NCBI RefSeq assembly: GCF_002736105.1
Contig: NZ_CP024123.1
Coordinates: 2,782,001 to 2,846,000, forward strand
From: Solibacillus sp. R5-41
GTDB lineage: Bacteria > Bacillota > Bacilli > Bacillales_A > Planococcaceae
Length of the DNA: 64,000 bases
Direction of reading: 5' to 3'
The notes beneath the pieces were generated by a model. It saw only the letters and a program-made list of their open reading frames with translations, ran no database searches and had not been told where the DNA came from. Positions 3,304 through 23,048 of this stretch are shown piece by piece. A program made the translations under genes and the position numbers. How positions within the stretch are numbered: position 1 is the first letter of the stretch; every line of letters starts with the position of its first letter.

Positions 3304-3424
3304 TCAATTCCTTCTTCCTTGAGTAATATTTTTCCCATCATTATCCATATTACCATATAAACTTAAAAATTAGAATTGCATTAATTGTTAATTTATTTAT
3401 TTTACAGGCTTTTTGATGAAGTTT

Positions 3425-3565
3425 TCTGCTACATTAGTTTAATAAGAAATTAAGGCTTTCTGAACAGCTCAATAATCATCAAGTATAGCAAGCGTTAGCC
3501 CAATAAAGAAAAAAAGAGTTGCTTATGCAACTCAACGATATTTAATTAACACCACCGTCGTTGAA
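3425..3565. repeat. Palindromic cassette-type repeat R1 (one and a half units)
   Basis: It begins CTGCTACATTAGTTTAATAAG, reaches a second core CGTTAGCCCAATAAAG at 3493, and then starts another unit with hairpin GAGTTGC-TTAT-GCAACTC (3516-3533). It ends with CACCACCGTCGTTGAAG. It lies directly 3' of the leftward membrane gene that stops at 3580. On that gene's sense strand, the hairpin plus following T-run reads as a terminator. Confidence 0.7.
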
Positions 3566-3579
3566 GAAGAAAAAGTGGC

Positions 3580-4275
3580 TTATTCAACAATCGCGTCCGA
3601 TTGATGAATATCTTTTTTATTCTTGTCTTGTAATTTATCTTGCTGCACAGCAAAAAATCTTCGAACTGGGATATTTATATAAAAGAACAACCCCATAATG
3701 AGAATCGCGAAAATCCACCCTGCGATTTGTTTATAAATCAACATTCCACCATAACCATCAATTCCATACTTTTTAAGTAGAAATACTGTTAATCCTGCCA
3801 TAAATAGACCTCTGACAATGAAAACAACCTGAATGAATTGAAACCATATAAAGATTCCTTTTTGAAAAAATAATGTTGTACTGTCCTTTCGTGCATAACC
3901 TTGCAAATAAGCAAAATCAACAGCAAAGTATAAAGAAAAAGGACGCTTAAAAATCAAAGCAATAAAGTAAATAACTGTATAAAACAGACCTAAATATACC
4001 CCATTCCATATCATTTGCTCTGCTGATCCTGATATCAGATTAATAGCGGTTCCTAGTGCCAATGAGCCTATGATAAATAATCCTGTTATGTTAAATTGCT
4101 TATCTAATATAAATCGATAACAGGTATAAACAAATCCCGGAATTGTTGAAATCAGCATTGCTGCATAATCTCCAAAAGGTTCCTTCCCATAATTCCATAT
4201 AATATAAGGTAATGCTGCATAAAAAATCAAATCCAATAAAATTAACCTTTTGTTTGAACGTTGTCTTTTTACCAT
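3580..4275 (-). CDS. VC0807-like integral membrane protein
   Basis: The protein has about 231 residues and five or six membrane segments, including LLDLIFYAALPYIIWNY near the N-terminus. It has the general look of the VC0807 / septation-protein-A-like group. The start chosen is the internal ATG at 4275 (MVKRQRSNK) behind GGAGGGGG; an ATG 12 nt further upstream is also possible. The last 25 residues are charged. Function unknown. It is a single-gene unit with repeats on both sides (R1 at its 3' end, R2 upstream). Confidence 0.65.
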   Translation of the reverse strand: MVKRQRSNKRLILLDLIFYAALPYIIWNYGKEPFGDYAAMLISTIPGFVYTCYRFILDKQFNITGLFIIGSLALGTAINLISGSAEQMIWNGVYLGLFYTVIYFIALIFKRPFSLYFAVDFAYLQGYARKDSTTLFFQKGIFIWFQFIQVVFIVRGLFMAGLTVFLLKKYGIDGYGGMLIYKQIAGWIFAILIMGLFFYINIPVRRFFAVQQDKLQDKNKKDIHQSDAIVE

Positions 4276-4380
4276 ATCCCCCTCCATTTATCCCCATACA
4301 GCTTCGCACTTATTTATACATATATGCGCTTTAACTATATAATTTTACCCGATTGACGAATAAGCAAAACATTATTCTTA

Positions 4381-4474
4381 TACTAAACTGCACCTTTAGT
4401 TTAATAAGAAAAAAGCTGTCTAAGCTGAGCTGCTCAACGCTCTTCAAGTAATGCACCGCGTTTGCTTAATAAAC
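4381..4474. repeat. Palindromic cassette-type repeat R2
   Basis: It reads TACTAAACTGCACCTTTAGT and continues TTAATAAGAAAAAAGCTG. A GAGCTGCTC core and CTTCAAGTAATGCACC follow, then GCGTTTGCTTAATAAAC. Arm and centre order match the family. It ends 12 nt before the stop codon of the leftward acetyltransferase at 4486, placing it on that gene's 3' side. Confidence 0.75.
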
Positions 4475-4485
4475 TATTTTATGTT

Positions 4486-4956
4486 TTAACAGACCTTTTT
4501 ATAAAATATAAGGGTTGTGTTATCGTTTAATTTCTTGCTTACTCCTGTTTTTCTATAACCCATTTTTTCGTATAAATAACAATTTCGTTCTTCCTCTAAG
4601 ATTGTAGCTAATTCCCACGTAGTTGCTTGAGGGAACATACCTTCAATTAAATTTATAACCAACTGAGCTATCCCTTTTCCTTGGTGAGTAGGCAAAATAA
4701 ACATAGGACTGATCCAAAACTGTACGTCTTCTCTCCAAAAAACAAAGATAGCTCCCACAAGCATATTATCCGCTACTATCTTGTAAAAACTACCATTATG
4801 TTGATTTATTCTTGATATTACTTTATCAATAGTTTCATTTGCTGGGTTTGTTTTGTAATCCTCATACTTATTCAACAAAGGCATAAAGGCTTTAACCTGA
4901 AGATCAAAAATAGCTTGTGCATCGATTTCAATTGCTTTATCCAATCTAAGTTCCAT
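4486..4956 (-). CDS. GNAT-family N-acetyltransferase
   Basis: The protein has 156 residues with a complete GNAT domain. Motif A is ISPMFILPTHQGKGIAQLVI, containing the Q-x-x-G-x-G/A acetyl-CoA pyrophosphate loop (HQGKGIAQ). The final strand reads YLYEKMGYRKTGVSKKL. The start is the ATG at 4956, 7 nt after AAGGTG. Substrate unknown. It sits just downstream of the ClbS-like gene (5003) in the same direction with 46 nt between them, so the two may be co-transcribed. Repeat R2 follows its stop. Confidence 0.8.
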   Translation of the reverse strand: MELRLDKAIEIDAQAIFDLQVKAFMPLLNKYEDYKTNPANETIDKVISRINQHNGSFYKIVADNMLVGAIFVFWREDVQFWISPMFILPTHQGKGIAQLVINLIEGMFPQATTWELATILEEERNCYLYEKMGYRKTGVSKKLNDNTTLIFYKKVC

Positions 4957-5002
4957 TATTTTCACCTTCTTTATATTTTTAATGAAACAGTAACGTTTTC
5001 AT

Positions 5003-5521
5003 TTATACATCCAAGTTATGTAACATTTTCGCAATAACTGAACATTTTTTGATTGCCCATTTGTAATGGTCAACTGTATTCGCTGCAAAATAACTATAAA
5101 GGTTACTTGTTTTTGACCATTTATACTGTTTTTTCATGATGATTTCTTCATATGTATGAGATTCAATTAATTGGACAACACGCCTATGACTTAGTGTCAC
5201 TTTTTTTATTGCATTTGTTAGTGATTCGTCCTGGTAGTTTGTCCAAATTTGATCGTTTAATTTACCTAGCGTACGCCACTTATAACCCGGTGCTGGCATT
5301 GCAGGGGTATCGCCATTCATCCCTTCGTTGTACCATCGTTCAAGCATCGCATGCCATTCATATAAATGCATGAGAATGTCACGAAAGTTTTTATCACGAT
5401 CTGTTATATCAACAGAAAGTTTTCGTTTACGTGTTGGAACACTTTCGATAATTGTAAATAATTGATCAAAGCTTTCCTGGATTGCTATTAAAAAGAGTTC
5501 TTTTGAATTAACTGTCGGCAT
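5003..5521 (-). CDS. ClbS/DfsB-family four-helix bundle protein
   Basis: The protein has 172 residues and begins MPTVNSKELFLIAIQESFDQ. The family marks are the helix ending DKNFRDILMHLYEWHAMLERWY, a conserved P-A-P-G-Y-K-W linker, and a final aromatic segment AANTVDHYKWAIKKC. ClbS proteins of the DinB-like superfamily hydrolyse or sequester reactive small molecules such as colibactin. DfsB members are named for diffusible factor cyclisation. Enzyme role here is inferred only. The start is the ATG at 5521 with GGAGAATAGAG before it; an upstream GUG-type extension lacks a good ribosome site. Confidence 0.75.
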   Translation of the reverse strand: MPTVNSKELFLIAIQESFDQLFTIIESVPTRKRKLSVDITDRDKNFRDILMHLYEWHAMLERWYNEGMNGDTPAMPAPGYKWRTLGKLNDQIWTNYQDESLTNAIKKVTLSHRRVVQLIESHTYEEIIMKKQYKWSKTSNLYSYFAANTVDHYKWAIKKCSVIAKMLHNLDV

Positions 5522-5851
5522 CTCTATTCTCCATTCTCCTATTATCCCTTTGAAAAAAAGTTTGATTTTTTTAGACATCCTTATTTCACTACCCTCCTCT
5601 GTTAGTGAAGTTTTTATTTTTCTATGTATACTCTTTCTAGTAATTTAGAAATAATCCCTTTATAAAATAATATTTTTGGAGGTATGTATTTTGTAAATAT
5701 CAAAAGCATGGGAAACTAATGAATCTAAAAAGAGTATTGAAGGTTTTTCTCGTCTATACCATCGTTTAAAATTTCTTTTTTAGTTATGAGAAAGAGAATC
5801 TCTCAGTATAATAGACTAAATTTTATTCAACAAGATTTGAGGTGAGTTCCT

Positions 5852-6793
5852 ATGTTTTCAATACTGCTAGCTATAAGCATTGGAGCCGTTTTTGCTATGC
5901 AAACAGCTATCAATGCTCAATTACGAAAAGTTGTGATTTCTCCTTTTTTAGCTTCAATGCTATCATTCGCTGTAGGGTTCATCTTCTTAGCTATCACAAT
6001 ATTAGTTAGTGGTTTACCATTAGGTATTCCATTAGAGTTATTCTCAAGCCAACCTATTTTTATTTGGCTAGGGGGGATTTGTGGTGCAATTGCTATAACC
6101 ACCAATATACTTTTATTCCCTAAATTAGGAAGTGTACAAACATCTATAATACCAATTTTGGGAATAACCTTGATGAGTATGTTAATAGATAATTATGGTT
6201 GGTTTAAATCCATTCCATATTCTTTCGGCTTGAACCGAGTCATTGGGGTTTTACTGGTCATAATAGGTGTTTTTTTTGCTGTGGCTATACCGAGAATGAA
6301 AACTAAACAAAATCCTTCCGAAGCAGCTATGAAAAACATGTTAAATCAATGGATTTGGCGTTTAGTAGGCATAATAGCAGGAATGTTACTGGCTATACAA
6401 ATTGCTATCAATGGTCAGTTAGGGCTAGTTCTGAACTCTCCTTCCCACGCAGCCTTTGTTTCATTTTTTGTAGGTACTATTACGTTAATTATGGTTGTTG
6501 GGGCAATGGACCGTTCTTACACAAATATTAAAGAGCCTATTAAGCAGTCAGCTCCTTGGTGGGTATGGACTGGAGGTATACTAGGAGGGTCTTATGTCCT
6601 GATAAATGTATATCTTGTTGATCAAATCGGAAATGGACAAACTGTAGTCCTTGCTTTATTTGGTCAAATCACTGGTAGCTTGATAGTAGAGAAATTCGGT
6701 TTGTTTAACTCTTTAAAAAAACCAATTAAACTAATACAAATATTCGGTTTAATCGTTATGATAGTTGGTGTCTTTTTAATCCAGATATTCTAA
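5852..6793 (+). CDS. DMT-superfamily transporter, two YdcZ domains
   Basis: The protein has 313 residues and about ten membrane helices in two homologous halves. Half one starts FSILLAISIGAVFAMQTAIN, and half two at about residue 170 starts LVGIIAGMLLAIQIAINGQL. The paired A-x-Q-x-A-I-N-x-Q-L signatures are those of the DUF606/YdcZ (PF04657) group of drug/metabolite transporters. Substrate unknown. The ribosome site is GAGGTGAG. It is one of the few rightward genes in the accessory block and has its own terminator, not a palindromic cassette repeat. Confidence 0.82.
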   Translation: MFSILLAISIGAVFAMQTAINAQLRKVVISPFLASMLSFAVGFIFLAITILVSGLPLGIPLELFSSQPIFIWLGGICGAIAITTNILLFPKLGSVQTSIIPILGITLMSMLIDNYGWFKSIPYSFGLNRVIGVLLVIIGVFFAVAIPRMKTKQNPSEAAMKNMLNQWIWRLVGIIAGMLLAIQIAINGQLGLVLNSPSHAAFVSFFVGTITLIMVVGAMDRSYTNIKEPIKQSAPWWVWTGGILGGSYVLINVYLVDQIGNGQTVVLALFGQITGSLIVEKFGLFNSLKKPIKLIQIFGLIVMIVGVFLIQIF

Positions 6794-6855
6794 ATAACTT
6801 CATTATACGTTCTTTTGGGGAAGCACTTAACTTCTTTAAAAAGGTATACTTTTAA

Positions 6856-6890
6856 AACACTCTAAAAGTATACTTTTAGAGTGTTTGTAT
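6856..6890 (+). terminator. Perfect 30-nt palindrome / terminator
   Basis: AACACTCTAAAAGTA is followed directly by its exact reverse complement. The stem starts in the region after the YdcZ-type gene and the following bases are TTTGT. It can act in both directions, between the rightward transporter and the leftward short ORF at 6956. Confidence 0.7.
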
Positions 6891-6955
6891 AATATCCTAA
6901 AATAATTTTAAACGTATACAATCATTTCCCTCTCTTTGTAAATAGTAAACATTCT

Positions 6956-7180
6956 TCATCTTGATAAAATTAAATCCTCAGGTAATTCTGGAGAAATCCA
7001 TCCAAAAAGGGAGTCGCTACGTTCCTTCAGGTATTGTGTAGTAATGTTATTTAAAAGAAAATAAAAAACATTTACTGTACCTTCGCCAAGCTCTGTCGTC
7101 TCCCACTGTCGTTGAATTTTTCTTTCGATAATTTGGTCTTCAATTTCTGCAATTAATTCATCTACAATTGCTAGCCACAA
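6956..7180 (-). pseudogene. Short leftward ORF, probably a 5'-truncated gene
   Basis: The 74-codon frame (WLAIVDELIAEIEDQIIERK and on) has protein-like composition but no good start. The only initiator is a TTG without a ribosome site, and the open frame continues upstream through FILHIRIWLLIDDEEL to a stop without meeting an ATG. This suggests that the N-terminus has been lost. I do not recognise the family. Confidence 0.4.
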
Positions 7181-7361
7181 TTCTTCATCATCTATTAAAA
7201 GCCAAATTCTAATATGTAAAATAAAGATTGCTTAATAATTCTGTGTTGATATGCCGAATTTCTTCTTATTCCACTATGGTCAATATTTGGAAAAATCCCG
7301 AAATATAGTATGTAATTTTTGATATAATTACATATAACAATATATATTAAGGAGTGACTAT

Positions 7362-8054
7362 ATGAAAAAATTACTTATAGTAACAAGTTATTTAGGCTTT
7401 TTTATATTAGGAGGTTTAACCTTTACTTACCTCTCAACAACGGAAGCAGCAAGCAATATGAAAAAGATTAGCGTATTTCAAGATAAAATCAATTACTATG
7501 TAGATAAGGTTGAAAAAAAACCACTCGAGGGTCAATCTGGCTTTATTTATGAAGGTACTACTTATGTTCCAATGCGTTTTATTGCTGAGTCTTTAGGGGA
7601 AAAAGTGACATGGGATGGAAAATCAAAATCCGTATATATTGGTAATGTTCCAAAATTCATCTCTTTAAAAGATGTAAAACCTATTGGGAGTGATGAAGAC
7701 CACTTCTTCCATTACCCAAGCACTATTATTATTAGTACCGGAGAAAAGTTTGAACAATCCTATCAACTTGGTGGATATCATGGTGGGGGGGCTGTACAAG
7801 ATCATACAGTTGAATACTTAGCTAATGGAAATTACAAAGGATTCGAAACATATTTAGCACCAGTTAAAAAGCTAGTGGCGGGCTCTTTCGGCATAGGTTC
7901 TATGAAAATTTACGCAGATAATAAATTGATTTATGATAGTGGATCGATAAAAGAAAAGGTAAAGGTTAATGTTAATTTAGACGGTGCTTCAAAAGTAAAA
8001 TTTGAAATTGAAGGCAGTGGTTTAGGTATATTAGACCCTAAACTTATTCAATAA
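7362..8054 (+). CDS. Secreted stalk-domain / NPCBM-like protein
   Basis: A 230-residue exported protein. A signal peptide (MKKLLIVTSYLGFFILGGLT) ends near TTEAAS. Residues about 40-95 are a copper-amine-oxidase-N-like stalk domain with the hallmark TYVPMRFIAESLGEKVTWDG. Residues 115-230 resemble an NPCBM/NEW2 carbohydrate-binding module (GGYHGGGAVQDHTVEY, FETYLAP, KIYADNKLIYDS). It is probably bound to or active at the cell wall; the ligand is not known. The ribosome site AAGGAGTG is 6 nt before the ATG. Confidence 0.75.
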   Translation: MKKLLIVTSYLGFFILGGLTFTYLSTTEAASNMKKISVFQDKINYYVDKVEKKPLEGQSGFIYEGTTYVPMRFIAESLGEKVTWDGKSKSVYIGNVPKFISLKDVKPIGSDEDHFFHYPSTIIISTGEKFEQSYQLGGYHGGGAVQDHTVEYLANGNYKGFETYLAPVKKLVAGSFGIGSMKIYADNKLIYDSGSIKEKVKVNVNLDGASKVKFEIEGSGLGILDPKLIQ

Positions 8055-8724
8055 TTTAACAAAGTAAATATAGAAGAATCTGAAACCTAAAAGAAGTTTT
8101 TATAATGGAGTTCCATTATACGATTGAATTTTTTTAAAACAGATTCTTCTTTTCTCGCAAATCAGGTTTTATCGGCTCATTTAATCTAACTTCATTTCAA
8201 CCCAACAAGACAATGACCTTTTCCGCAACATTTAATGTAGTAATGTACGCTTAAGTCATCAATTGTTCATTTAAGTATATGGCTCTCCTAATGCAAAACG
8301 ATAAGGATTACAAAAGGAGCCATTTCCTTTTTGTACAGCATTTAACTCTTTCCAGCTACATTTTCAGTTGAAATCGAGGTGTCACCATAGGCAGACATTT
8401 AGATAATTCCACAATGTTTTCATTGGATGCAGCAATCCATTTATGTAAATAAAAGAACTGAGTGAGAAATAAAGCTCAGTTCTTTTGCAGAAATCCAGTT
8501 TCATAAATGTACGATTATATTATTTCCGTACACCTACAAAATTAAAGGCAGCTTAATGCCATAACGTTGCTATAAATTTGTAAGTCAATATAGTTGCTAG
8601 TTTATTAGACATTGAAAATTCACATAGAAATCATAGAGCTAGTCACAGGCTAAATAAGAAAAAACGCCTTCCTTATGAAGACTGTTTCATCCTTACGTGT
8701 CCTGTGATGATATCCATTTATTAA
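8055..8724. other. Gene-free stretch with several hairpins
   Basis: It contains a terminator for the stalk-domain gene (8072-8155: AGAAGAATCTG / CAGATTCTTCT, with an inner TATAATGGA / TCCATTATA stem). A GGCTCTCCT / AGGAGCC pair lies near 8281-8325. A terminator-like stem AAGAACTGAG / CTCAGTTCTT at 8453-8484 is followed by TT. At 8650-8680 the text GGCTAAATAAGAAAAAACGCC looks like a decayed cassette-type repeat on the 3' side of the peptidase gene. I see no coding region. Confidence 0.5.
8072..8155 (+). terminator. Terminator after stalk-domain gene
   Basis: The outer stem AGAAGAATCTG / CAGATTCTTCT closes a long loop that holds a second stem TATAATGGA / TCCATTATA. A TTTT run follows. Confidence 0.6.
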
Positions 8725-10698
8725 TCATAAAACCCTAAAATCTTTCATACTTTCTCCAAGAATATAGTGGGAAAACCACATCAAATTCTGCTTCATAATA
8801 GCCACATTAATTCCTGGCTGGTCCGAACTATATGCCATTCCTTTAAAAATAACTAATTCTGTATCAACTTCCATATCCCTTAATCCTTGATATAGCTCAT
8901 ATGCATTCGGAGCAGGAATTCTTGCATCCTTTTCACCATGTTGGATTAAAGTGGGCGTACAGGATGATTTAATATATGTCATTGGTGATGTTTTAGTATA
9001 TATCTCTGGATCATTCCATGGATTATTTCCTAAATACATCTTAATAAAGTAAGGTATATCTGTATTTACATAATGGGTACTCCAATTAGTAATTCCACCT
9101 CCAACTGAAATAGCTTTAAACCTACTACTAAATGTAGAACAGAAAGCTGATATATATCCCCCGTTGCTCCACCCCATAACCCCTACTCTATCTTTATCTG
9201 CAATCCCATTGTCAACTAGTTTATCCACTCCAGATATAATATCGTCGTAGTCAGCAATTCCCAGTTTTCTATAGTTTGCTTTTAAGAATTCATTACCATA
9301 ACCAGAACTTCCCCTGTAGTTTGGTTCTAAAATGATAAAGCCTTTTTCGATAAACTGTTCAATAGGATACTTCTCATTAAAACAGTCTGAAAATATTGGA
9401 AATGATGCCCAAGCCGGACCACCATGGATCACCACTAATAAGGGATATTTTTTATTTGCGTCAAACTCTACTGGGGTTGATAAAACTCCCTCTATTTCAA
9501 GACCATCACTACTTTGCCATGAGATTATTTCCCTGTTACTTTTAAGCTTTCCTTTGAAATAACTATTTTCATTCGTTATTTTTTTATCGTCTAAATAGAT
9601 TTCAAAGGTTTCATTTGTTATTGCCTTACTATAGGATATATAATTTCCATCCCTTGTTATAGAAGCATCCATTATAAAGCCATCTACTTTTTCGCTTAAC
9701 ATTTCCACAGTGCCATTCTCAGATAACAACCCAATAAGATAATTAGTTTTATTCTGCCATCTAATTAAAATTCCTTTAGCTGTCCACCGTATTGGAATAA
9801 CCGAACTGTCAAAATCTATTAAAGGTTGAATTAGCTCTCCATTATTAATATCATATATTTCTAGTGTACTGTCTTGAATATGGGTCTTATAATAATCCTT
9901 CTCCCTTATGCTTGCTGAATAACATATTTTGCTGCCTTCAGGAGAAAAGCAAACGCTCCCTCCCAACAACTTATCTATATTCATCTTTTGTAGCACTCTA
10001 GCTTTAATATCTAGTATGAATAGATCTCCATTAATGTAATCTCCCATATTTGGGCTTGAAGTAGCCATAAATACAGCCTTTTTCCCATCATTTGAAATAT
10101 CAAATTCATGGATATGAAAATCCTTACCATCAGTTAGTTGATAAACAATGCTTTTTTCGTGTTTGTATTTATCATTTTGTAGCACTTTTTCTATTTCAAT
10201 GTAATATAAACAACTATTCTGGTATTCCTTACCCACATAATGAAAGTCTCCATATAATTCCTTACGTTTCTTTATCGCCTCAGATTCTTTTGACTGTGCA
10301 ATATAATAAAGCCCCTTGCCAGTAGGCTCCCATTTGAATTTACTGACCCCTTCTTTTTCATCAGTGATTTGAACTCCACTATTACCATCTATTGACTTAA
10401 CAAAGATCTGATTTTTCTTATTATCCCCGTCACCAATTGGGCTAAGGTATGCGATATTTCTAGAATCTGGAGACCATAATGGGTACGTACAATCTATATC
10501 TCCAGTTGTTAATAGGTAACACTGCCCCTTATCTTTTTCATATATCCATACATGATTCCTATATTTATTGTCTTTCCAGTTAGTTGTCTTCTTGACAAAT
10601 GCTACGTTTTTGCCATTATCACTTATGTTTGTACCTGATAAGGTTGGTAATGAAATAATCTCATCTATACTTAGATATGTTTTTTCATTCATTTTCAT
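8725..10698 (-). CDS. S9-family peptidase (acylaminoacyl-peptidase-like), catalytic His apparently absent
   Basis: The protein has 657 residues. Residues 1-380 form a beta-propeller of WD40-like/TolB-like blades (SPDSRNIAYLSP, SNDGKKAVFMA). The C-terminal alpha/beta-hydrolase has the oxyanion segment VIHGGPAWAS, nucleophile GWSNGG and acid GEKDARIP. The usual third residue lies in G-M-x-H-x-x-x-K-P; here the text is FKGMAYSSDQPG, with Tyr where His is expected. The family cleaves oligopeptides or acylated N-termini in the cytosol. If the His is really gone, the protein may be inactive or work differently. ATG with GAGGGGG ribosome site. Confidence 0.8.
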   Translation of the reverse strand: MKMNEKTYLSIDEIISLPTLSGTNISDNGKNVAFVKKTTNWKDNKYRNHVWIYEKDKGQCYLLTTGDIDCTYPLWSPDSRNIAYLSPIGDGDNKKNQIFVKSIDGNSGVQITDEKEGVSKFKWEPTGKGLYYIAQSKESEAIKKRKELYGDFHYVGKEYQNSCLYYIEIEKVLQNDKYKHEKSIVYQLTDGKDFHIHEFDISNDGKKAVFMATSSPNMGDYINGDLFILDIKARVLQKMNIDKLLGGSVCFSPEGSKICYSASIREKDYYKTHIQDSTLEIYDINNGELIQPLIDFDSSVIPIRWTAKGILIRWQNKTNYLIGLLSENGTVEMLSEKVDGFIMDASITRDGNYISYSKAITNETFEIYLDDKKITNENSYFKGKLKSNREIISWQSSDGLEIEGVLSTPVEFDANKKYPLLVVIHGGPAWASFPIFSDCFNEKYPIEQFIEKGFIILEPNYRGSSGYGNEFLKANYRKLGIADYDDIISGVDKLVDNGIADKDRVGVMGWSNGGYISAFCSTFSSRFKAISVGGGITNWSTHYVNTDIPYFIKMYLGNNPWNDPEIYTKTSPMTYIKSSCTPTLIQHGEKDARIPAPNAYELYQGLRDMEVDTELVIFKGMAYSSDQPGINVAIMKQNLMWFSHYILGESMKDFRVL

Positions 10699-12207: not shown

Positions 12208-12215
12208 ACTTAACT

Positions 12216-15399: not shown

Positions 15400-16254
15400 A
15401 TGTCAGCTTGGTTAGAATCGTTACAAAAAGCAATTAACTATATCGAAGAAAATTTATTAAAAGAAATTTCGATAGTGGACATTGCAAATGAAGCAAACTC
15501 TTCTGCATTCAATTTTCAACGAACATTTGGATTATTAACAGAGATCTCAGTAGGTGAATATATTCGGCGGAGAAGATTGACTTTGGCAGCAGACGAGTTA
15601 AAAAGAACAGACAGTAAGATTATCGACCTTGCATTTAAGTATGGCTATGACACTCCCGAGGCTTTTTCAAAAGCCTTTAGGCGTCAGCATGAGGTTTCAC
15701 CAAGTGACGCTAGGAAAAATATTGGCAAGATTAAATCATATAACCGCCTCGTAATAGAGGTGAGATTGAGAGGGGCAGAACCAATGAAATATCAAATCGT
15801 AGAACGTGAAGGCTTACAAGCAATAGGTGTAAAAAAAGAATTTTTACTTGAGAATAATGGCAATTTAATCGGAATCCCTAAAATGTGGGATGAATTAAAT
15901 AGTGATGGCACTACTGACAAGCTAGCACAAATTAATAATGGACAAATTAAAGGAGTTCTTGGTATTTGTGTAGCAAAACCTAATGAGAAAATTGACTATT
16001 GGGTTGCTACAGACTATGCAGGTGACGTTAAAGATGGATTTGAAGTAATCGAACTTCCAGCTTCTAAATGGGGAGTTTTTGAAGTACATGGTCCAATGCC
16101 TGATGCAATGACAAAGGTTTGGAAACAAATTTTTTCTGAATGGTTCCCTGCTAACGGATATCAACATGCAGGAACACCAGAGTTCGAAATGTATACAGAA
16201 GATGATCCATTCAGTCCAGATTGCTATTCAGAAATTTGGGTTCCATTAAAATAA
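15400..16254 (+). CDS. AraC-family regulator with GyrI-like effector domain
   Basis: The protein has 284 residues. Residues 1-105 are two HTH motifs of the AraC/XylS type (LLKEISIVDIANEANSSAFN; KIIDLAFKYGYDTPEAFSKA). Residues 125-284 are a GyrI-like/SOUL-type small-molecule binding domain (KYQIVEREGLQAIGVKKEF; WVATDYAG; FEVIELPASKWGVFEVHGPM). This is the MarA/Rob/BltR-like architecture that senses amphipathic compounds. Target genes unknown; the divergent neighbour is not an obvious partner. It has its own terminator and no cassette-type repeat. Confidence 0.87.
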   Translation: MSAWLESLQKAINYIEENLLKEISIVDIANEANSSAFNFQRTFGLLTEISVGEYIRRRRLTLAADELKRTDSKIIDLAFKYGYDTPEAFSKAFRRQHEVSPSDARKNIGKIKSYNRLVIEVRLRGAEPMKYQIVEREGLQAIGVKKEFLLENNGNLIGIPKMWDELNSDGTTDKLAQINNGQIKGVLGICVAKPNEKIDYWVATDYAGDVKDGFEVIELPASKWGVFEVHGPMPDAMTKVWKQIFSEWFPANGYQHAGTPEFEMYTEDDPFSPDCYSEIWVPLK

Positions 16255-16268
16255 TTTGAAATAGATGT

Positions 16269-16304
16269 CCCATTAGTCGATGCCAAAACGACTAGTGGGA
16301 TTTT
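16269..16304 (+). terminator. Terminator of the AraC-type gene
   Basis: Stem CCCATTAGTCG / CGACTAGTGGG (10 of 11 pairs) with a 9-nt loop is followed by ATTTTT. Confidence 0.8.
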
Positions 16305-16534
16305 TGAATAGAGGCTAGATATCCTTTCCGAGACTAAACGGAGAGTTATCAGAGACCAAACGAGGCAACGAGGCCTCATCTTTGAAATACTTATATTTAA
16401 ATAGACACGCTGTATCCCATAAAAATAAATGATACGTTGAGAATAAACAGACCTGGATTATTCACCGTTTTCTTTGTGTGAGAGGCTGTTAGCTTCTTTG
16501 TCTTTTCACACATTAATGCTTATGACAAAACTTG

Positions 16535-16557
16535 TAGCGCTGCTGCGTTAGTTTAAG
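16535..16557. repeat. Cassette-type repeat core upstream of 16669
   Basis: GCGCTGCTGCGTTAGTTTAA has the family's core (GCGTTAGTTTAA) but no clear hairpin. It is 3' of the leftward acetyltransferase gene, like the other copies. Confidence 0.45.
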
Positions 16558-16668
16558 TGTAACATTTCAAAAATGGAGTGCCGAATATCCACCTGATGTT
16601 TTGGACGTAAAAATAAACCATCATAATGATCTTGTTTAACTAAAGCCCCCGAGAGTGGAAGAAGAAAA

Positions 16669-17178
16669 CTAAAATATATTTCTAATATCTTCCCAACCAT
16701 ACACAAGTTCGGAAAGTTTTTTCTCTGAAATCTCAACTTCAACAGTATCTATTTTTTTTCCACCAAGTGATTCATAAAATAGACGAGAAATATTATCTTC
16801 TAAGACAAGAACAAGCATAGAGTTTAATCCCAATTCTGTAATCTCTTTAATTATCGGTTTAACAAGTGCTTTTCCAATACCATTGCCCTGATACTCTTTT
16901 AAAATGTATATTGCATATAACTCCCCTTCGAACCCTTTGTAATTCCCACTTCTTTCTATACCACCAGAAGAAAAACCAACAATTTCCCCTTCCTTGTTTT
17001 CTGCTACAAATACTCCGCCATTAGGAATATTGTTTTCCCATAATTGTTCTCTACTTTCGTATGTTAACTTATTTAAATATTGGTCTGAAATTATATTCTT
17101 ATATGTAGTTTTCCAACAATCAACGTGTACTTTAGCTATTCCCTTTGCATCAGATAAAACTGCTTTTCTAATGTTCAT
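16669..17178 (-). CDS. GNAT-family N-acetyltransferase
   Basis: A 169-residue protein starting MNIRKAVLSDAKGIAKVHVD, a typical PaiA-like GNAT entry. The acetyl-CoA loop is YILKEYQGNGIGKALVKPII (Q-x-x-G-x-G). The last strand reads SRLFYESLGGKKIDTVEVEI. The start at 17178 follows GAGAGGAATTA; a frame extending 18 nt further has no better signal. Substrate unknown. The upstream side carries repeat R8. Confidence 0.82.
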   Translation of the reverse strand: MNIRKAVLSDAKGIAKVHVDCWKTTYKNIISDQYLNKLTYESREQLWENNIPNGGVFVAENKEGEIVGFSSGGIERSGNYKGFEGELYAIYILKEYQGNGIGKALVKPIIKEITELGLNSMLVLVLEDNISRLFYESLGGKKIDTVEVEISEKKLSELVYGWEDIRNIF

Positions 17179-17230
17179 TAATTCCTCTCCCCTCATTGCA
17201 ATAAATATTACAATATAATATCGATTTCTA

Positions 17231-17328
17231 ATTCAACTAACCTGCTACGTTAGTACAAGAAGAAAATACTCCCCTAAAGGCAGCTCTGTTCTGCTAAGCC
17301 ACCGTTAGTTGAAGAAGGATTGCACCTA
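17231..17328. repeat. Palindromic cassette-type repeat R8
   Basis: The left arm ATTCAACTAACCTGCTACGT is followed by TAGTACAAGAAGAAAATAC. The centre is AGGCAGCTCTG and the right core is CCACCGTTAGTTGAAGAAGG. The outer arms TTCAACTAAC and GTTAGTTGAA are exact reverse complements (10 bp). It is on the 3' side of the DUF2441 gene (stop at 17373). Confidence 0.8.
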
Positions 17329-17372
17329 TATCTCGGTAAAACGAAAACAAGTTGTTACTAACAAGTTTGATT

Positions 17373-17966
17373 TTAAGCAGTGAAATCATCAATAACTTCA
17401 ACCACTTCTATTTTCCCGTCGATTAAGAGTTCAGGAAGCTCGTTTTTCACATTACCCTGCCAATATTGTCTAGCTTGTTCCATTTTCCGAGAGAATGGAA
17501 CCCCATCTTCTTTTGGTAAAAGGTTTCCATCCCCCTCAAAGGATTTTCCAATAACTCTAAGTTTAACAATTTGCAAAACCTTCCGATTATATGAATCAAA
17601 TAATTCTTTCCATTTCAATATGTCTTCATAGTTTTTTGTCGCGTATAAACAAGACATTCTAGAAGGGTATTCTGGATATTCTTGTAGTCTGACCATTTCT
17701 ACTATTACTTCTCTAATAGCTCTTATTGTTTGGTCCGAATACTTAATAACTACATCAGCATTTTCTTTATTCAAATACAAGCCTTCATTTGAATAATGTT
17801 CTTGTAAAATTCGAAAAAAATCTTCTCCTTTAGAATTCGATTGTTCTCTTTCAAAAAAGAAGCTAAATAAGGTATTTCTTTGATTCTTATCAAAGCTTAT
17901 TATTTGACCTATACTCATTTTTTGCCTAGTAACAATGTGATAAACATACAGCTCATTCTCTTTCAT
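17373..17966 (-). CDS. DUF2441-domain protein
   Basis: A 197-residue protein. The opening [19 protein letters not shown], the middle [20 protein letters not shown] with [20 protein letters not shown], and the tail [11 protein letters not shown] are characteristic of DUF2441, an uncharacterised family common in Bacillus that resembles ADP-ribosyl-transferase-like or nucleoside-binding folds (weak inference). The ribosome site is AGGAGATAAAC. The function is not known. Confidence 0.75.
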
Positions 17967-18022
17967 TGTTTATCTCCTATCTGTCTTCACCTAAATTAAT
18001 TCTTACAAAAAAGGGGTACCTT

Positions 18023-18050
18023 ATTGAACTAATCACACCCGTTAGTTTAA
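18023..18050. repeat. Minimal cassette-type repeat R9
   Basis: TTGAACTAATCACACCCGTT followed by AGTTTAA is the inverted arm pair with only a 9-nt spacer and no central hairpin. It lies 43 nt 3' of the acetyltransferase gene that stops at 18093. Confidence 0.6.
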
Positions 18051-18092
18051 GTAGGGAGCCTTGCAGTTTTGTGCAGACACATCCTATTAGTG

Positions 18093-18575
18093 TCAAACTA
18101 ATTTCTTCTCCATTGTCCAGTAAGTATCGTGCCAGCCAATATGTACATATCCTAATTGTTCGTATAAGCGACAAGCTGGATTTCTTGGATCTACGCTTAA
18201 ACATAATTTCTGATACCCATAATTTATTGCTTCTGTTTCGAGCGCACGCATTAAAGCATTTCCAATTCCTTTACCCCGAAATTCTTTAAGGATGGCAATG
18301 CCGATTTCTGGCGTTTCATCATCACCATAGCCCTTTTGTTCTTCATCAAACAGACGTAACCAAATGGCACCAATTGCTTGTTTGTCATTTTCCGCAATCA
18401 ATCCAATATCACCGCTTTGTTCCCCCCATCTCTCTACATATTTTGAGACAGATGGTTCGTCTAATATTGTTCGTGGAAAAGGTTTTTGTCCTTCTGGTAC
18501 AAATGCGGACTCATACACCATATCCTGCAAGAAGGGGATATCGTGTCTTTCAAGACTTCTTATTTCGAAACTCAC
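18093..18575 (-). CDS. GNAT-family N-acetyltransferase
   Basis: A 160-residue GNAT protein. Motif A is GIAILKEFRGKGIGNALMRA (R-x-x-G-x-G), and the last part is NPACRLYEQLGYVHIGWHDT. It starts with GTG, 9 nt after GGAGG. The local base composition is similar to its neighbours. Substrate unknown. Repeats lie on both sides (R9 at the 3' end, R10 upstream). Confidence 0.82.
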   Translation of the reverse strand: MSFEIRSLERHDIPFLQDMVYESAFVPEGQKPFPRTILDEPSVSKYVERWGEQSGDIGLIAENDKQAIGAIWLRLFDEEQKGYGDDETPEIGIAILKEFRGKGIGNALMRALETEAINYGYQKLCLSVDPRNPACRLYEQLGYVHIGWHDTYWTMEKKLV

Positions 18576-18659
18576 AGTATTGAACCTCCATTCCTTCCTG
18601 AAACTTTGAATTACTGATTTAAATTATTTCGACAAAATAAACTTTCAATCCTTTAAAGC

Positions 18660-18732
18660 TTCTCAAAGCGTTTGAAGAGCTGTCTAAGCAGCTCAATGTT
18701 CTTCATGTAAAGCATCCAGTTAGTTGAATAAG
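18660..18732. repeat. Palindromic cassette-type repeat R10
   Basis: The centre is GAGCTG-TCTAAG-CAGCTC (18677-18694), followed by AATGTTCTTCATGTAAAGC, ATCCAGTTAGTTGAATAAG. The left arm is decayed (CTTCTCAAAGCGTTTGAA). The right core ends 12 nt before the stop of the leftward membrane gene at 18744. Confidence 0.75.
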
Positions 18733-18743
18733 TAATTTAATTT

Positions 18744-19448
18744 CTAAATAAAGCGATATTTACGTGAAAATTGCGTGATAACCAAAATAATTGTTAACCC
18801 TACAACGAGATACCATATTATTTTAAAAGGAACTATGAACATTAATACACCAAATGATATAGCTGTTAAAGTGCTAACTGTAATTGATTGTATACTCGTA
18901 AATTTATCTTTAATAAAATAATAAAAAGTGAATGGTAGTGCTAAAGTAAATATCGGAATATAAATTGTTATAAAAGATGTTTTAATCAGAGATATTGAAA
19001 GTACTGCTATTATGAAACCTATTGACGTAGTAAGCGTTCTTCCTACAAATACTTTACCTGAAAAATAGCCGTATAGCAGAATAATCAAAATCGCTAAACA
19101 GGCACAAATTCCTATTATTAAAACAAATGAATGACCTATGAAAAAAGCTGACATTGAGAAACAAACTAAAGAAACGAATGGCAACAGCAATATTGAAGGA
19201 TTTTGCACTTTTTTTATATTCATTACATTTGTAAAACCTACAAGAAATATTAAAGTAAATGGAATCGTCAAATATCCTAATTCGATGTGATTAATATGAA
19301 TTACCTCTAGTTTGCCGACCATTATTATTACAAGTGACGCACAAATTTGACCAATCAATGACCAAATGCTTGATAATTTATAAGCTTGAGTAAGCTTGTC
19401 CGTAATTACAATTGAAACGATACCAATAAATAAAGCTAAATATAACAA
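18744..19448 (-). CDS. MraY/WecA-like membrane protein lacking the catalytic loop
   Basis: The protein has about 234 residues and eight or more membrane segments. The order SSIWSLIGQICASLVIIMVG, then a short loop with IELGYLTIPFTLIFLVGFTN, matches the middle of polyprenyl-phosphate N-acetylhexosamine transferases (MraY, WecA, TagO). There the next text should be x-N-x-I-D-G-L-D-G; here it is VMNIKKVQNPS. The first third of the family (with its D-D motif) is also absent. It is therefore probably a degenerate or repurposed paralogue. The start is a TTG after GGGAGGGG. Confidence 0.6.
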   Translation of the reverse strand: MLYLALFIGIVSIVITDKLTQAYKLSSIWSLIGQICASLVIIMVGKLEVIHINHIELGYLTIPFTLIFLVGFTNVMNIKKVQNPSILLLPFVSLVCFSMSAFFIGHSFVLIIGICACLAILIILLYGYFSGKVFVGRTLTTSIGFIIAVLSISLIKTSFITIYIPIFTLALPFTFYYFIKDKFTSIQSITVSTLTAISFGVLMFIVPFKIIWYLVVGLTIILVITQFSRKYRFI

Positions 19449-19555
19449 ATTTTCCCCTCCCAAGATAATTCTTTAGAAATACTTAAAGTTAAATACCCCA
19501 AATCAAATAATACCTTATGTGTAAAAAAACAACATGAATACTCTGGTAATGTTTA

Positions 19556-19699
19556 TTGAACTAACCTCCCTCTATAAACACTGATGTATCAACAGTTCCC
19601 ACCACTTCTTGGTTATTTTATAATCCGATTTTCTTATGGAAGATAGGTTTCAATTACCTGTGCTTTATTGATATTGCAGAATCGTCTCGGTTAGTTGAA
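19556..19699. repeat. Long cassette-type repeat variant R11 (144 nt)
   Basis: The outer arms are an exact 11-bp inverted pair, TTGAACTAACC at 19556-19566 and GGTTAGTTGAA at 19689-19699. The interior (about 120 nt) is unlike the other copies and lacks the GAGCTGC hairpin. The right arm is 60 nt 3' of the acetyltransferase gene that stops at 19759. Confidence 0.75.
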
Positions 19700-19758
19700 T
19701 CATTAGGATACAGAAATTGATAAATTTAACAGTTCCCCTTTAATGGAATGGCAGGTAA

Positions 19759-20235
19759 TCAGAGTCGCAATACGGTTATTGGCTCGTTGTCGCAGATTTC
19801 GCCGTTGTCACTGAAGCCAAAGCTTTCATAAAGTTTTTTGGCTGCGAAGTTATCAGTCCCATATGGGATCCAGCAGTAACGTGCTGGCCCCGCTGGAAAG
19901 GTACGTATAAATTCCAAGATTTTTTTCATGGCTTCCCGACCGTAGCCCCTGTTCTGGTATTGCTTGTCAATCATCAGTCTCAAGATGCAATAACTGTCAT
20001 CTGCTATTGATGGAAGTTCGTATCCGGTGATTCCATAAGTCAGCATAACAAAACCAACCGGCTGCTCATCCGCGTAAATGGCAAACGGAAATGGTTGTCC
20101 CCCATTGGATGCAAGGACATAACACGATGCCACGCTTGACAGATTGGAAGCAACGAAGCGGCGTTGTTCTTCTGAAACTTCCAGGTTAAATATGGCGCGG
20201 CGGTTTTCCAATGTAATTTTTCTAAGCTCAATCAT
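19759..20235 (-). CDS. GNAT-family spermidine-acetyltransferase-like protein (BltD-like)
   Basis: The protein has 158 residues. MIELRKITLENRRAIFNLEV, then DSYCILRLMIDKQYQNRGYG and REAMKKIL, then NFAAKKLYESFGFSDNGEI, matches diamine/spermidine N-acetyltransferases such as BltD. The acetyl-CoA loop is Q-N-R-G-Y-G. The coding sequence is clearly richer in G and C than its neighbours, suggesting a separate source. The start is the ATG 8-9 nt after GGGAGAA. Flanked by repeats R11 and R12. Confidence 0.82.
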   Translation of the reverse strand: MIELRKITLENRRAIFNLEVSEEQRRFVASNLSSVASCYVLASNGGQPFPFAIYADEQPVGFVMLTYGITGYELPSIADDSYCILRLMIDKQYQNRGYGREAMKKILEFIRTFPAGPARYCWIPYGTDNFAAKKLYESFGFSDNGEICDNEPITVLRL

Positions 20236-20730
20236 GCATTGCTTCTCCCTTCATCATCTAAATTAGTATCGTAATCAATGATATTTCATTGATTCCAATT
20301 CAACTTAGTAATTTAAAATCAAAAATGTAAAATCCCTATTGAACTAAGCTGTTCAACGGGCTTAAAGTAAAGTACCCGTTAGTTCAAGATAAATTACTCT
20401 ATCCTTCCTAATAGCATTGCCATTGATAGTAAAATGCTAACGTAAAAATATTTTTTCAACATTCCCACCCAATTTAACATTATTAATAAATTCAATTAAA
20501 TAATAACATATATGTAAATTATTGTTTAATAAAGATTTTAGGTCCCAAAGCCTGGTTTGGGGATATACAGTTCGTAAACAGCCAAAAGCAAACACCCCAC
20601 TCATCACTTGAATGGGGTGTATTGTTACCTAACTTATATTTTGGTACGTTTATTAAGTTTATTTTGTATACTTTATTAATCCTTATTTCACTAAAGCATC
20701 TGTTAGGGATGTAATGAATATTTAGTGAAA
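20236..20730. other. Gene-free stretch with repeat R12 and a terminator
   Basis: Repeat R12 is at 20339-20387. A stem with ACACCCCA / TGGGGTGT (20592-20620) is followed by ATTGTT. The remainder is AT-rich and shows no coding frame. Confidence 0.55.
20339..20387. repeat. Short cassette-type repeat variant R12 (49 nt)
   Basis: The outer arms TTGAACTAA / TTAGTTCAA are exact reverse complements. The interior GCTGTTCAACGGG ... CTTAAAGTAAAGTACCCG keeps the AAGTAAAG..CACCCG part but lacks the central hairpin with its T-run. The nearest leftward gene on this 3' side is the membrane gene at 20731, about 340 nt away. Confidence 0.75.
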
Positions 20731-21162
20731 TTATAACGAAATTTTCCTTTTATTATTTTTTAGTAACGAAACCAAATAAACAGTGAGGTAACCAAATAAA
20801 CCAAGTAATATTTGGATTAAGCTTAATACAAATAATGCTGATGTTGGTAAGTACCATTCTCCCAACAAAATAGTTGGAATAACAGTACAAGAGAAAAATA
20901 AAGCTCCCATAGTGAAGGTCATTATAAATATTTTTTTATCTTTCTTTATAAATCCGTAAGTTGAAGCAATGCCATTTCCGATCCCAAAAACAATCATTCC
21001 AAATAAAGCTAAACTCGCCCAATTATTAAATGGCAAAACGCCTAGCCACTCTTGCGGAAACGTATCGAAAACACCTCTTTCTAAAAACATTGACACGCCC
21101 AAATAAAAAGCACCTAAACACAATAATAAATTATAAGAATTTAAAATATTTTTTAGTAGCAT
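20731..21162 (-). CDS. Four-helix membrane protein, unknown function
   Basis: A 143-residue protein with four membrane segments: NSYNLLLCLGAFYLGVSMFL, WASLALFGMIVFGIGNGIAS, FIMTFTMGALFFSCTVIPTI and FVLSLIQILLGLFGYLTVYL. Short charged ends (NNKRKISL). The ribosome site AGGGAGG is before the ATG. I do not recognise the family, although it resembles small hydrophobic DUF proteins often found in Bacillus accessory regions. Confidence 0.65.
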   Translation of the reverse strand: MLLKNILNSYNLLLCLGAFYLGVSMFLERGVFDTFPQEWLGVLPFNNWASLALFGMIVFGIGNGIASTYGFIKKDKKIFIMTFTMGALFFSCTVIPTILLGEWYLPTSALFVLSLIQILLGLFGYLTVYLVSLLKNNKRKISL

Positions 21163-21525
21163 TTTCCCTCTACCTCCCTTTATTACTGCATTGAATAAAC
21201 TGCGTTGTCCGAGTAAAAATCGTTAATCCGTAAAGTTAAATAGAAAACACTAATATATATTGACGTATCAGCGCACCTACTCAAAACAAAAAGGTTCTTA
21301 TCAAGAATAATATTCTACTCCCTATTATCGTTTCCTCTCGTTTCCACTATCCTACCCCGTTAGCCATTCATGAAGTGCACCCCAAACACTTCACCACAGA
21401 AAACGAAAGATGATTAAGTTCTTTCAAGGGTGCTGAAGTACAAACCTTCTCTAAGCATGGTTATTAGAAGCTTTTGAAATGCCTGTTGAACTATTATCCA
21501 CGTTAGCTAAGAGGATGTTTTATGA
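21163..21525. other. Gene-free stretch
   Basis: No gene is seen. Near 21484-21508 a minimal cassette-type repeat (R13) TTGAACTATTATCCACGTTA, then GCTAA, lies close to the 3' end of the nucleotidyltransferase gene (stop at 21526). Confidence 0.5.
21484..21508. repeat. Minimal cassette-type repeat R13
   Basis: TTGAACTATTATCCACGTTA, then GCTAA: degenerate arms with a 9-10 nt spacer and no central hairpin, 18 nt from the stop of the leftward gene at 21526. Confidence 0.5.
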
Positions 21526-22251
21526 TTAAAGGTTATCTTTCCCTAATGAAAACCCTTCAAATAGTCGCCCACCGTATGGTTCTAGAACCTTTTCACTTAG
21601 TTGAATAATTTTTCTTTTCTCTCCTGTTTTATAAAAAGTATCAAAGGCTTCAACGTATTCTTCGGTAAATTTTACATCGTAATGCTTCAATGCACGAATA
21701 ACCCATTTTGAAGAACCTATCCAACGACCATTAGTTCTTAAAACAAATTCTTGAACAAGCTCAGCTAATGTGTTCGCAATAAATATTTCTTCAGCTCTAT
21801 TATTACAACCTATAAAATCATCCAGGGCATCAGTTATAAAATAACGCTTTGTCGTAATTATTTGTTCTGTCCATCTTTCAGGTCCCTTTTCTAACATCTC
21901 TTTAGCTTCTTCTTTTATAGAATCAATAATTCCTTCATCTTTTAAAATAATACCTTCTAATAACATTCTTTGCATAGAAGGCTTAGCATCTTTATAATCC
22001 ATTTCGAAAAATTGTTTATAGGAAGTTGAATTATGTACGAAAATCTCTATTGGCCAACCGAAATCAATCAATGACTCCCTGTACGAGGAGGTTATACTTT
22101 TTTCAAAAACGACGATATCCAGATCAGAGGTATCTGTTTCCTCTCCTCTTACAACACTTCCAGCCAATACAGCTCCTTGACAGGAAGGGAAGCGCTTATT
22201 AATAAACCGTTTGGCTGCTTCTACTGGATTTAACTTTTTAGTATTTCCCAT
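21526..22251 (-). CDS. Nucleotidyltransferase-fold protein
   Basis: The protein has 241 residues. The nucleotidyltransferase motif is complete: AGSVVRGEETDTSDLDIVVF, that is G-S-x9-D-x-D, with a third acidic residue in WPIEIFVHN. The C-terminal helices (residues 110-240) look like the helical domain of aminoglycoside nucleotidyltransferase-like or DUF4111-type proteins. It could modify a small molecule or act on RNA. The start is the ATG at 22251, 6 nt after GAGGTG. Confidence 0.77.
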   Translation of the reverse strand: MGNTKKLNPVEAAKRFINKRFPSCQGAVLAGSVVRGEETDTSDLDIVVFEKSITSSYRESLIDFGWPIEIFVHNSTSYKQFFEMDYKDAKPSMQRMLLEGIILKDEGIIDSIKEEAKEMLEKGPERWTEQIITTKRYFITDALDDFIGCNNRAEEIFIANTLAELVQEFVLRTNGRWIGSSKWVIRALKHYDVKFTEEYVEAFDTFYKTGEKRKIIQLSEKVLEPYGGRLFEGFSLGKDNL

Positions 22252-22337
22252 TAACTTCACCTCAAACTATTTGAATTTCTACTAACTAAAATTCATTATC
22301 AAGCCTCAATATTCTGTTCCGTTATTTTAACAACGGA

Positions 22338-22823
22338 TTAACTATTTAATTCTTTCGTTAAATTCTCAATTGCAGACAATACTTCTTTCATATTTGCTTC
22401 GTTGTTCATATTATTTCTGGCATGAAGGAGGACTGGCCTTATGGATTCGATTGAACGTCCGAAATCATACATCCATTCATAACGTGGAACCATCCAAGTA
22501 TGGAAATGATGTATTGTATCTTCATTATAAAAATAATATACATGCTCAATATTCAATACTTCCCTCTGAGCCTGCCTAATTTTTGTTAAAAGATTAACAT
22601 AATCTAATTTTTCTGCTTCAGTTAATTCATCGAAGCACTTAATATGTCGTTTAGAGGCTAAAATGATTAACCCTTTTATTGGATATGCCACATCTTGATG
22701 TGCATGAAAGTATTCCGTTTCTATAACAACTCCACCATCAGGTTCAATTAATCCACTTGTCAATGCACAACTCAAACATTCAACTTCTACACTTTTCCCG
22801 TTTGACAATATTGTTTTCCTCAC
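22338..22823 (-). CDS. HIT-like protein with altered histidine triad
   Basis: The protein has 161 residues. The segment CLSCALTSGLIEPDGGVVIE near the start and then HIKCFDELTEAEKLDYVNLL matches HIT-superfamily hydrolases/transferases. The triad normally reads H-x-H-x-H; here it is IHHFHTWMVPR, so the third histidine is a tryptophan. An N-terminal Cys pair (C16, C19) is also present. Starts with GTG. It sits upstream of the nucleotidyltransferase gene in the same direction with 86 nt between, a pairing that could be functional. Confidence 0.7.
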   Translation of the reverse strand: MRKTILSNGKSVEVECLSCALTSGLIEPDGGVVIETEYFHAHQDVAYPIKGLIILASKRHIKCFDELTEAEKLDYVNLLTKIRQAQREVLNIEHVYYFYNEDTIHHFHTWMVPRYEWMYDFGRSIESIRPVLLHARNNMNNEANMKEVLSAIENLTKELNS

Positions 22824-22867
22824 AGATAGTTTCCCCTTTCAATCATTTGGATTATTATAAAATAAGG

Positions 22868-22918
22868 GCTGACTAAACAGTTACAAAACTAACAAGTAAC
22901 GCTCTCCGTTAGTTCAAC
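22868..22918. repeat. Short cassette-type repeat R14
   Basis: CTGACTAAACAGTTACAAAAC, then TAACAAGTAACGCTCTCCGT and TAGTTCAAC. The right core matches the family, the left arm is partial, and the hairpin is replaced by a shorter interior. It is 3' of the acetyltransferase gene at 23049 and is the last copy of the array. Confidence 0.6.
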
Positions 22919-23048
22919 ATGACAAAACCTCAAATTATCATCTCTCTAATTGAAAATTAAAAGTAAACAATCTGAAAAGAATTATGTTTTTTGTTTTAAA
23001 TCCCCAGAAAAACGAATAATCAGTATTATATTTCGAATAAAAATTTTT

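Follow-up and report, generated by a model that had tools for sequence, protein, structure and literature searches.

The window analysed here is a stretch of 64,000 nucleotides of Solibacillus sp. R5-41 (positions 2782001-2846000 of a 4.28-Mb single-contig genome), and its left part carries a series of near-palindromic repeats among mostly leftward genes. These repeats are very probably the recombination sites of an integron-like cassette system that has its own recombinase and a dif-like site, and in which the recombinase gene and short terminators would also be carried as cassettes. A reading made from the letters of the window alone (the sequence-only reading) had proposed that the repeats mark an integron-like cassette array, with sites of a non-canonical kind and an integrase missing from the window, and the genome-wide and cross-species evidence favours that proposal. 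Judged by the tested criteria for IntI and attC, the system is not an integron. It extends across the genome, and the array in the window is a degenerate outlier within it.

Sites, terminator segments and arrays

The aligned sites form a near-palindromic 27-bp sequence, TTSAACTAAC-CTGCNNC-GTTAGTTSAA, with a second type of left arm that ends in AAAGC. The idealised site forms a hairpin when folded as single-stranded DNA, as expected of any palindrome, and a 91-nt form with two sites folded as DNA no better than chance (z -1.33, with 22 of 200 shuffles folding as well). A 36-nt site model that allows for both left-arm types, trained on 126 and 86 sites from arrays outside the window, found 14 plus-strand matches above 8 bits in the window. 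All of these lie at 3432-22907 and 13 of them score above 15 bits; the plus strand of the rest of the window gave no match above 8 bits. The roughly 14 copies counted earlier at about 3.4-22.9 kb were recovered with a model that had not been trained on the window. Scans of Markov shuffles (n=60) reached a top score of 11.0 and a second score of 7.5. Additional partial sites lie close to 16546, 18718, 19556 and 19690. The minus strand gave three matches above 8 bits, at 38448, 34947 and 17242; the first is a lone site-like sequence of 23.5 bits, outside the array and in the opposite orientation.

The sequence-only reading had described a single long repeat with an internal GAGCTGC/GCAGCTC hairpin, and on both points it has to be revised. 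The repeat is really one or two 27-bp sites, the long form being two sites that flank one movable terminator segment, and the hairpin belongs to such separate mobile segments. Intervals between sites of less than 120 nt account for 53 of 258 in seven arrays of the genome, and no unit of the arrays is repeated more often than the short terminator segments. Those tested read, in the sense of the genes, as a hairpin followed by a run of T residues, and the short segments look like candidate mobile terminators. Hairpins of the terminator type are predicted in the window at 3533-3516 and 12806-12787, and the window has 15 terminator-like sites, compared with 8.7 (standard deviation 3.0) in shuffled sequence.

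Across the genome, the motif CNNCGTTAGTTBAA occurs 156 times on the plus strand and 67 times on the minus strand, against 1 and 3 occurrences of a reversed control. The occurrences cluster into minus-strand arrays at about 1.637-1.652, 1.715-1.717 and 1.736-1.778 Mb and plus-strand arrays at about 2.067-2.129, 2.224-2.238, 2.512-2.669 and 2.785-2.805 Mb, seven intervals that were delimited by eye from the site clusters. Within them, 265 sites are in the array orientation and 15 in the other, and 311 open reading frames (ORFs) of at least 50 aa run in the cassette sense and 70 in the opposite sense. The first ORF of at least 60 aa in the cassette sense, in 168 intervals, has its stop codon within 100 nt of the core in 102 cases and within 60 nt in 71. 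In the stretches examined, GC skew switches its sign somewhere from 1.82 to 2.04 Mb; because site orientation flips with the skew, the cassette genes run with replication. The sites at 0.34 Mb may be an exception to this replication-aligned orientation.

In 106 single-gene cassettes, the distance from the start codon to the next core has a median of about 103 nt. A sample of 20 proteins from these cassettes contained three NUDIX proteins, one GNAT acetyltransferase and six without a match, the rest being GrpB, HAD, peptidase, hydrolase, SUKH and DUF families, a lipoprotein signal and an IS110 transposase. PADLOC, run on 10 longer cassette proteins, matched none of the 10. A 36-nt element unrelated in sequence to the cassette site (L083:14311-14346) was also encountered, with many repeats in all or most of the listed congeners.

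Cassette movement and the probable point of exchange

Homology between arrays ends within 25 nt of a site at 190 of 524 ends, about eight-fold more than with random placement (mean 24.6, standard deviation 5.0, maximum 43 in 200 trials); high-scoring segment pairs that overlap ten copies of an IS110-family insertion sequence (IS) were dropped from this count. Within the genome, a cassette with a 146-aa ORF recurs near 2098, 2628, 2630 and 2644 kb with neighbours that are partly different. Between species, a 1,035-nt unit is shared with Psychrobacillus sp. OK032 (95% identity) and ends at sites in both genomes, and several units common with Solibacillus palustris (90-99.5%) are likewise bounded by sites in both. 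When the window locus was compared with those of 10 of 15 congeners, nine were empty, their flanks being separated by 154-367 bp. In the tenth, G003, the contents are shorter and different and include a relative (88%) of a unit from another array of the R5-41 genome. The comparative evidence is strong, and the cassettes probably move by site-specific recombination. The sequence-only reading had named as fatal to it a spread of repeats without a link to gene 3' ends, or genes and repeats that never move together; what was found instead is that the sites are clustered and linked to 3' ends and that site-bounded genes move. The window array itself is best explained as an old, degenerate side array without a recombinase, similar to the clusters of attC sites lacking integrases (CALIN), in an island that most of the compared congeners lack. 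Many cassettes of different genera that lie after the recombinase (L105-L182) start with a similar sequence, TTTAAGTACATTTCTTCACAA, past the core.

The position of exchange can be approached with pairs of sites that have one flank in common and not the other, namely 158 pairs in 20 groups with only the left flank in common and 186 pairs in 24 groups with only the right. Ancestry switches in these pairs at CGTTAG, whose invariance in the comparison follows from the criterion by which the sites were picked. Requiring at least 95% identity in the flanks, and removing pairs that contain the IS motif, left 15 left-homologous and 29 right-homologous pairs. In this stricter set the left arm differs in one of the 15 left-homologous pairs and in 28 of the 29 right-homologous pairs, and the two centre bases in 1/15 and 20/29. 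The opposite distribution is seen on the other side, where the base after GTTAGTT differs in 9/15 and 2/29 and positions 9-14 differ in 14/15 and 4/29. Counted by groups, the centre bases vary in one of eight left-homologous and seven of nine right-homologous groups, with a background mismatch of 0.68; the site pairs are not independent, and just four left-homologous groups have the informative type of arm. These patterns suggest an integron-like exchange at one edge of the core, for which matching centre bases would be unneeded. When the IS pairs are retained, 10 of 37 left-homologous pairs are mismatched at the centre bases. Heteroduplex segregation of the two centre bases, considered at first, lost support once the IS copies had been taken out.

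The array recombinase and competing explanations

The genome contains 22 matches to tyrosine-recombinase domains. One family among them, P0001, has intact copies at 2647587 and 1751069 and broken copies at 2128070 and 2242211, and its copies lie inside four of the arrays or no more than 4 kb away from them. The recombinase probably starts at a TTG codon and has about 278 aa. It passes the XerA-type model NF040815 (223.5 bits, cut-off 220) and falls below the cut-offs for XerC (200 vs 335), XerD (206 vs 330) and the IntI model TIGR02249 (89.2 bits, cut-off 265). Sequence matches in the PDB are weaker to IntI4 than to XerA/XerD, and a fold search with a structural model of P0001 placed XerA first and IntI4 eighth, a supporting result only, given a mean pLDDT (predicted local distance difference test) of 73 and a pTM (predicted template modelling score) of 0.48. 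Five residues (R153, K177, H243, H269 and Y278) do not vary among 30 proteins of the family and R246 hardly varies; these six are taken as the catalytic residues.

The recombinase gene is itself usually framed by sites. Upstream lies a site whose right half is conserved and whose left half varies between genomes, and downstream a terminator-like hairpin is followed by another site. Two copies in the genome have 1,001 nt in common (97.6%), a segment that begins and ends at sites. Among loci with at least 140 nt of flank, to which the counts of recombinase flanks are confined, a downstream site lies within 140 nt of the recombinase stop codon at 58 of 75, compared with 17 of 1,677 control windows. 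Sites are co-oriented with the recombinase in 478 cases and not in 77; by locus, 70 of the 78 listed favour this orientation, four oppose it and four are ties.

Those 78 loci come from a scan of genome contigs that yielded 266 relatives of the recombinase. Relatives are present across Bacillales, and the listed genera include Psychrobacillus, Lysinibacillus, Sporosarcina, Solibacillus, Neobacillus, Bacillus, Mesobacillus and others, and one listed record is labelled Chryseobacterium. A search of 61 related genomes found six with more than 20 sites; five of these six, and three of the other 55, have the recombinase (E 1e-60). In a sample of 150 genomes of the order, which according to their labels all belong to one family, it is present in 12 of 15 genomes with at least 12 sites and in 24 of the 135 others (Fisher p 2e-6, at a cut-off of 12 that was chosen after the counts were seen). 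On plasmids there are 18 recombinase records at E 1e-40, five of them with at least 60% identity. Plasmid pSP10-266k of Sporosarcina psychrophila carries the recombinase, under the sole annotation of tyrosine-type recombinase. A loose pattern has 18 matches on that strand, and the gene lies amid the eight of them that are site-like, together with genes for NUDIX, mer, IS110, metallopeptidase and GNAT proteins. Phages gave four records, all below 35% identity.

In the sequence, oriented 27-bp sites delimit the cassettes, each of which is a gene with its upstream region, a non-coding terminator segment of 55-105 nt, an IS or the recombinase gene. The part played by the recombinase is inferred from where its gene lies and from its co-occurrence with sites, and the following mechanism is proposed. 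The XerA/XerD-like recombinase would exchange strands at CGTTAG, excise cassettes as circles and reinsert these, in one orientation, at other sites. Cassette genes and recombinase diverge from the site next to the start of the recombinase gene, as in the integron layout, and the recombinase, usually with a site after its own terminator, could move as a cassette.

Several observations weigh against this proposal, in addition to the retrospective choice of cut-off just mentioned. An upstream site was found at 49 of 75 recombinase loci and in 297 of 1,677 control windows, with a loose pattern and a loose control, and sites are present on both sides of the recombinase in just 36 of 72 loci. Only eight of 131 homologous pairs have sites at all four ends, and one of these eight, retained in the count, is another IS110-type unit. 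No two close strains turned up whose difference was exactly one cassette, and the copy at 0.34 Mb yielded no clean empty site. In the distribution data, the sixth site-rich relative, G002, retains just a 36-codon remnant of the recombinase, and three of the 15 site-rich genomes (G097, G113 and G183) have none at E 1e-60. Many of the 24 site-poor genomes with a recombinase belong to a branch of 61-67% identity (L096, that is G001, and similar genomes). Members of this branch are mostly single-copy, in genomes without 27-bp sites, and the branch may use another site.

The site-rich genomes without an array recombinase, the dif-like size and symmetry of the 27-bp site and the precedent of the Acinetobacter dif modules (the available text of PMC13141974) would all fit a system in which the host XerC/XerD pair moves the cassettes and the array recombinase is a passenger. 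We consider this unlikely, since the array recombinase co-occurs with the sites and is framed by them, and the sites lie nearly all in one orientation. The site arms are also unlike the B. subtilis dif sequence, which has no match in the genome within three mismatches. The largest array holds four tyrosine recombinase genes in a row (genome 2606928-2611482; L073:6928-11482), one of which encodes 654 aa with several SAM-like domains ahead of the catalytic domain. This cluster sits between two sites of the array, and the idea that it drives the system is hardly credible. Relatives of P0005 (E 1e-60) occur in just three of 37 genomes, including the site-poor G009 and G017, and in one of the five that are site-rich (G000, and not G002, G015, G019 or G020); moreover, S. 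palustris already implies cassette movement without the cluster.

It is also very improbable that the repeats are a miniature inverted-repeat transposable element (MITE), an IS-derived family or a terminator family at gene ends, with common units arising by homologous recombination between repeats. The abundance of the short terminator segments as the most repeated units, and their folding as hairpins followed by T-runs in the gene sense, is what such a family would offer. It leaves unexplained why ancestry switches, whichever side is considered, at a single hexamer, why exact gene units are common to different genera and why the recombinase is framed by sites. The units between sites differ in gene content, rather than having a fixed sequence, and their homology ends at the sites; sites of 27 bp are also short for RecA-type exchange. 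A cassette system with its own recombinase is the reading we retain, and a fuller claim can be made for it as a whole, which we hold to be probable with less assurance. Under this claim the Bacillales would have a second, independently evolved integron, in which a XerA-type recombinase travels as one of its own cassettes, short dif-like sites are exchanged at one core edge, the left partner keeping its centre bases, which need not match, mobile terminator cassettes insulate captured genes, arrays of about 155 kb are built, and cassettes are passed between genera and onto plasmids.

The window array and related systems

Within the window, the copies do lie 3' of leftward genes, as the sequence-only reading had it, and the spacing of 10-60 nt that it gave holds for only part of them. 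Core-to-stop distances are 23 nt (12193/12216), 39 nt (14305/14344), 19 nt (16650/16669) and 53 nt (18040/18093), with longer ones of 143 nt (12829/12972) and 354 nt (20377/20731). The stated absence from rightward genes was upheld, with no site within 250 nt of the 3' ends of the three long ones (5852-6793, 7362-8054 and 15400-16254). The genes were said to be unrelated. Of 20 proteins scanned, seven fall into GNAT acetyltransferase families and the remainder, among them MsrA, a nucleotidyltransferase and members of DUF families, are mostly unrelated. Inside the array, the AraC-type gene at 15400-16254, one of the rightward ones, matches Pfam Cass2, a name taken from an integron-associated protein. 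A search of Rfam 15 with 2300-24000 gave nothing above the gathering score and two sub-threshold matches. To the left of the array, 12-nt tandem repeats lie within an ORF at 611-826.

Unless stated otherwise, the sites given here are on the plus strand and the genes on the minus strand. The array opens with a degenerate site (core C at 3432; 3417-3446; 21.0 bits), followed by a terminator segment remnant on the minus strand with the hairpin 3533-3516 (3503-3550; repeat family D8, terminator prediction) and a 235-aa cassette ORF without a Pfam match (3580-4287). A site with core C at 4394 (4379-4408; 34.8 bits) precedes a minus-strand terminator segment with a degenerate second site (4412-4474; repeat family D3) and a GNAT acetyltransferase gene (4486-4965). 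Farther along are a second GNAT gene (11376-11960), two sites at 12130 and 12193 around a 63-nt terminator-type mini-cassette (12115-12207; 33.9 and 16.6 bits) and a 151-aa ORF without a Pfam match (12216-12671). Two sites at 12767 and 12829 surround a terminator mini-cassette with the predicted hairpin 12806-12787 (12752-12843; 25.2 and 21.8 bits), next to a peptide methionine sulfoxide reductase gene (12972-13442; PF01625). A degenerate site at 13612 (13597-13626; 23.8 bits) and a site at 14305 (14290-14319; 34.0 bits) are followed by a 135-aa cassette ORF (14344-14751; ORF list and Pfam scan).

In the right half, sites at 16546 and 16650 surround a segment of the 105-nt class (16531-16665; 36.0 bits for 16650, and GTTAGTTTAA at 16547) beside a GNAT gene (16669-17196). 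Two sites at 17248 and 17303 enclose a 55-nt terminator-type mini-cassette (17233-17317; 44.5 and 21.4 bits) before a DUF2441 gene (17373-17966; PF10386), and a short site at 18040 (18024-18054; 19.6 bits) precedes another GNAT gene (18093-18575). A terminator segment with a site whose core is near 18718 (18671-18733, plus strand; repeat family D3, with GTTAGTTGAA at 18719) is followed by the remnant of an IS110-family element between two site halves (19553-19700, plus strand) and a further GNAT gene (19759-20235). A site at 20377 with perfect outer arms (20339-20387; 26.9 bits), a 143-aa ORF without a Pfam match (20731-21162), a nucleotidyltransferase-domain gene (21526-22260; PF01909) and a degenerate site at 22907 (22892-22921; 8.1 bits, with GTTAGTTCAA at 22908) complete the array.

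By eye, the ends of that remnant match those of a 1.79-kb IS110-family element that occurs in ten copies between site halves, some of the right halves being degenerate. The element was at one time considered as a group II intron, an idea rejected because it carries an IS110-family transposase. Elements of the IS1111/IS110 group that target attC, such as ISKpn4 and ISPst6 (according to the available text of PMC11187229), resemble it in lying within recombination sites, whereas the target here is the 27-bp site and not attC.

The arrays resemble integrons and CALIN in their length, in their mostly single small genes in one orientation, in their GNAT, NUDIX and unknown genes and in the lack of a recombinase in some of them. 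They further resemble integrons in the apparent exchange at a GTTAG core, in the divergence of recombinase and cassette genes and in an attI-like site beside the recombinase start with cassettes in one orientation. They differ in their recombinase, which does not reach the cut-off for IntI, is closest to XerA/XerD and is usually framed by sites rather than being a fixed gene, in the presence of terminators as cassettes, and in having a short palindrome as their site where integrons have a long attC. The simple boxes of attC are RYYYAAC/GTTRRRY, and the core GTTAGTT does not fit the second of these. The Acinetobacter dif (pdif) modules have in common with the present arrays the placement of genes between short Xer-type sites. 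Those sites occur in both orientations and bound alternate modules, unlike the 265 against 15 sites counted here, and the system described here differs in its own recombinase, single site orientation and chromosomal arrays of up to about 155 kb. A further likeness is that IS elements target the sites (PMC10132070, in the part available). Dif modules have been called unique to Acinetobacter and plasmid-borne (available text of PMC13141974), and a 2026 paper describes chromosomal dif sites as well (PMC12907356, available text).

No description of such arrays in Bacillales was found in the open-access literature searched. Complete integrons are reportedly almost absent from Firmicutes, where one in Limnochorda pilosa and a few CALIN have been recorded (PMC9024848, as far as the available text goes), and the possible origin of integrons from Xer-type recombinases has been approached through attI x attI reactions (PMC4792948, available portion). 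Tools that seek IntI and attC would miss a system of the kind proposed here. It would serve as a natural test of such an origin, and a comparable gene-capture system in Firmicutes would explain part of the flow of accessory genes in environmental Bacillales.

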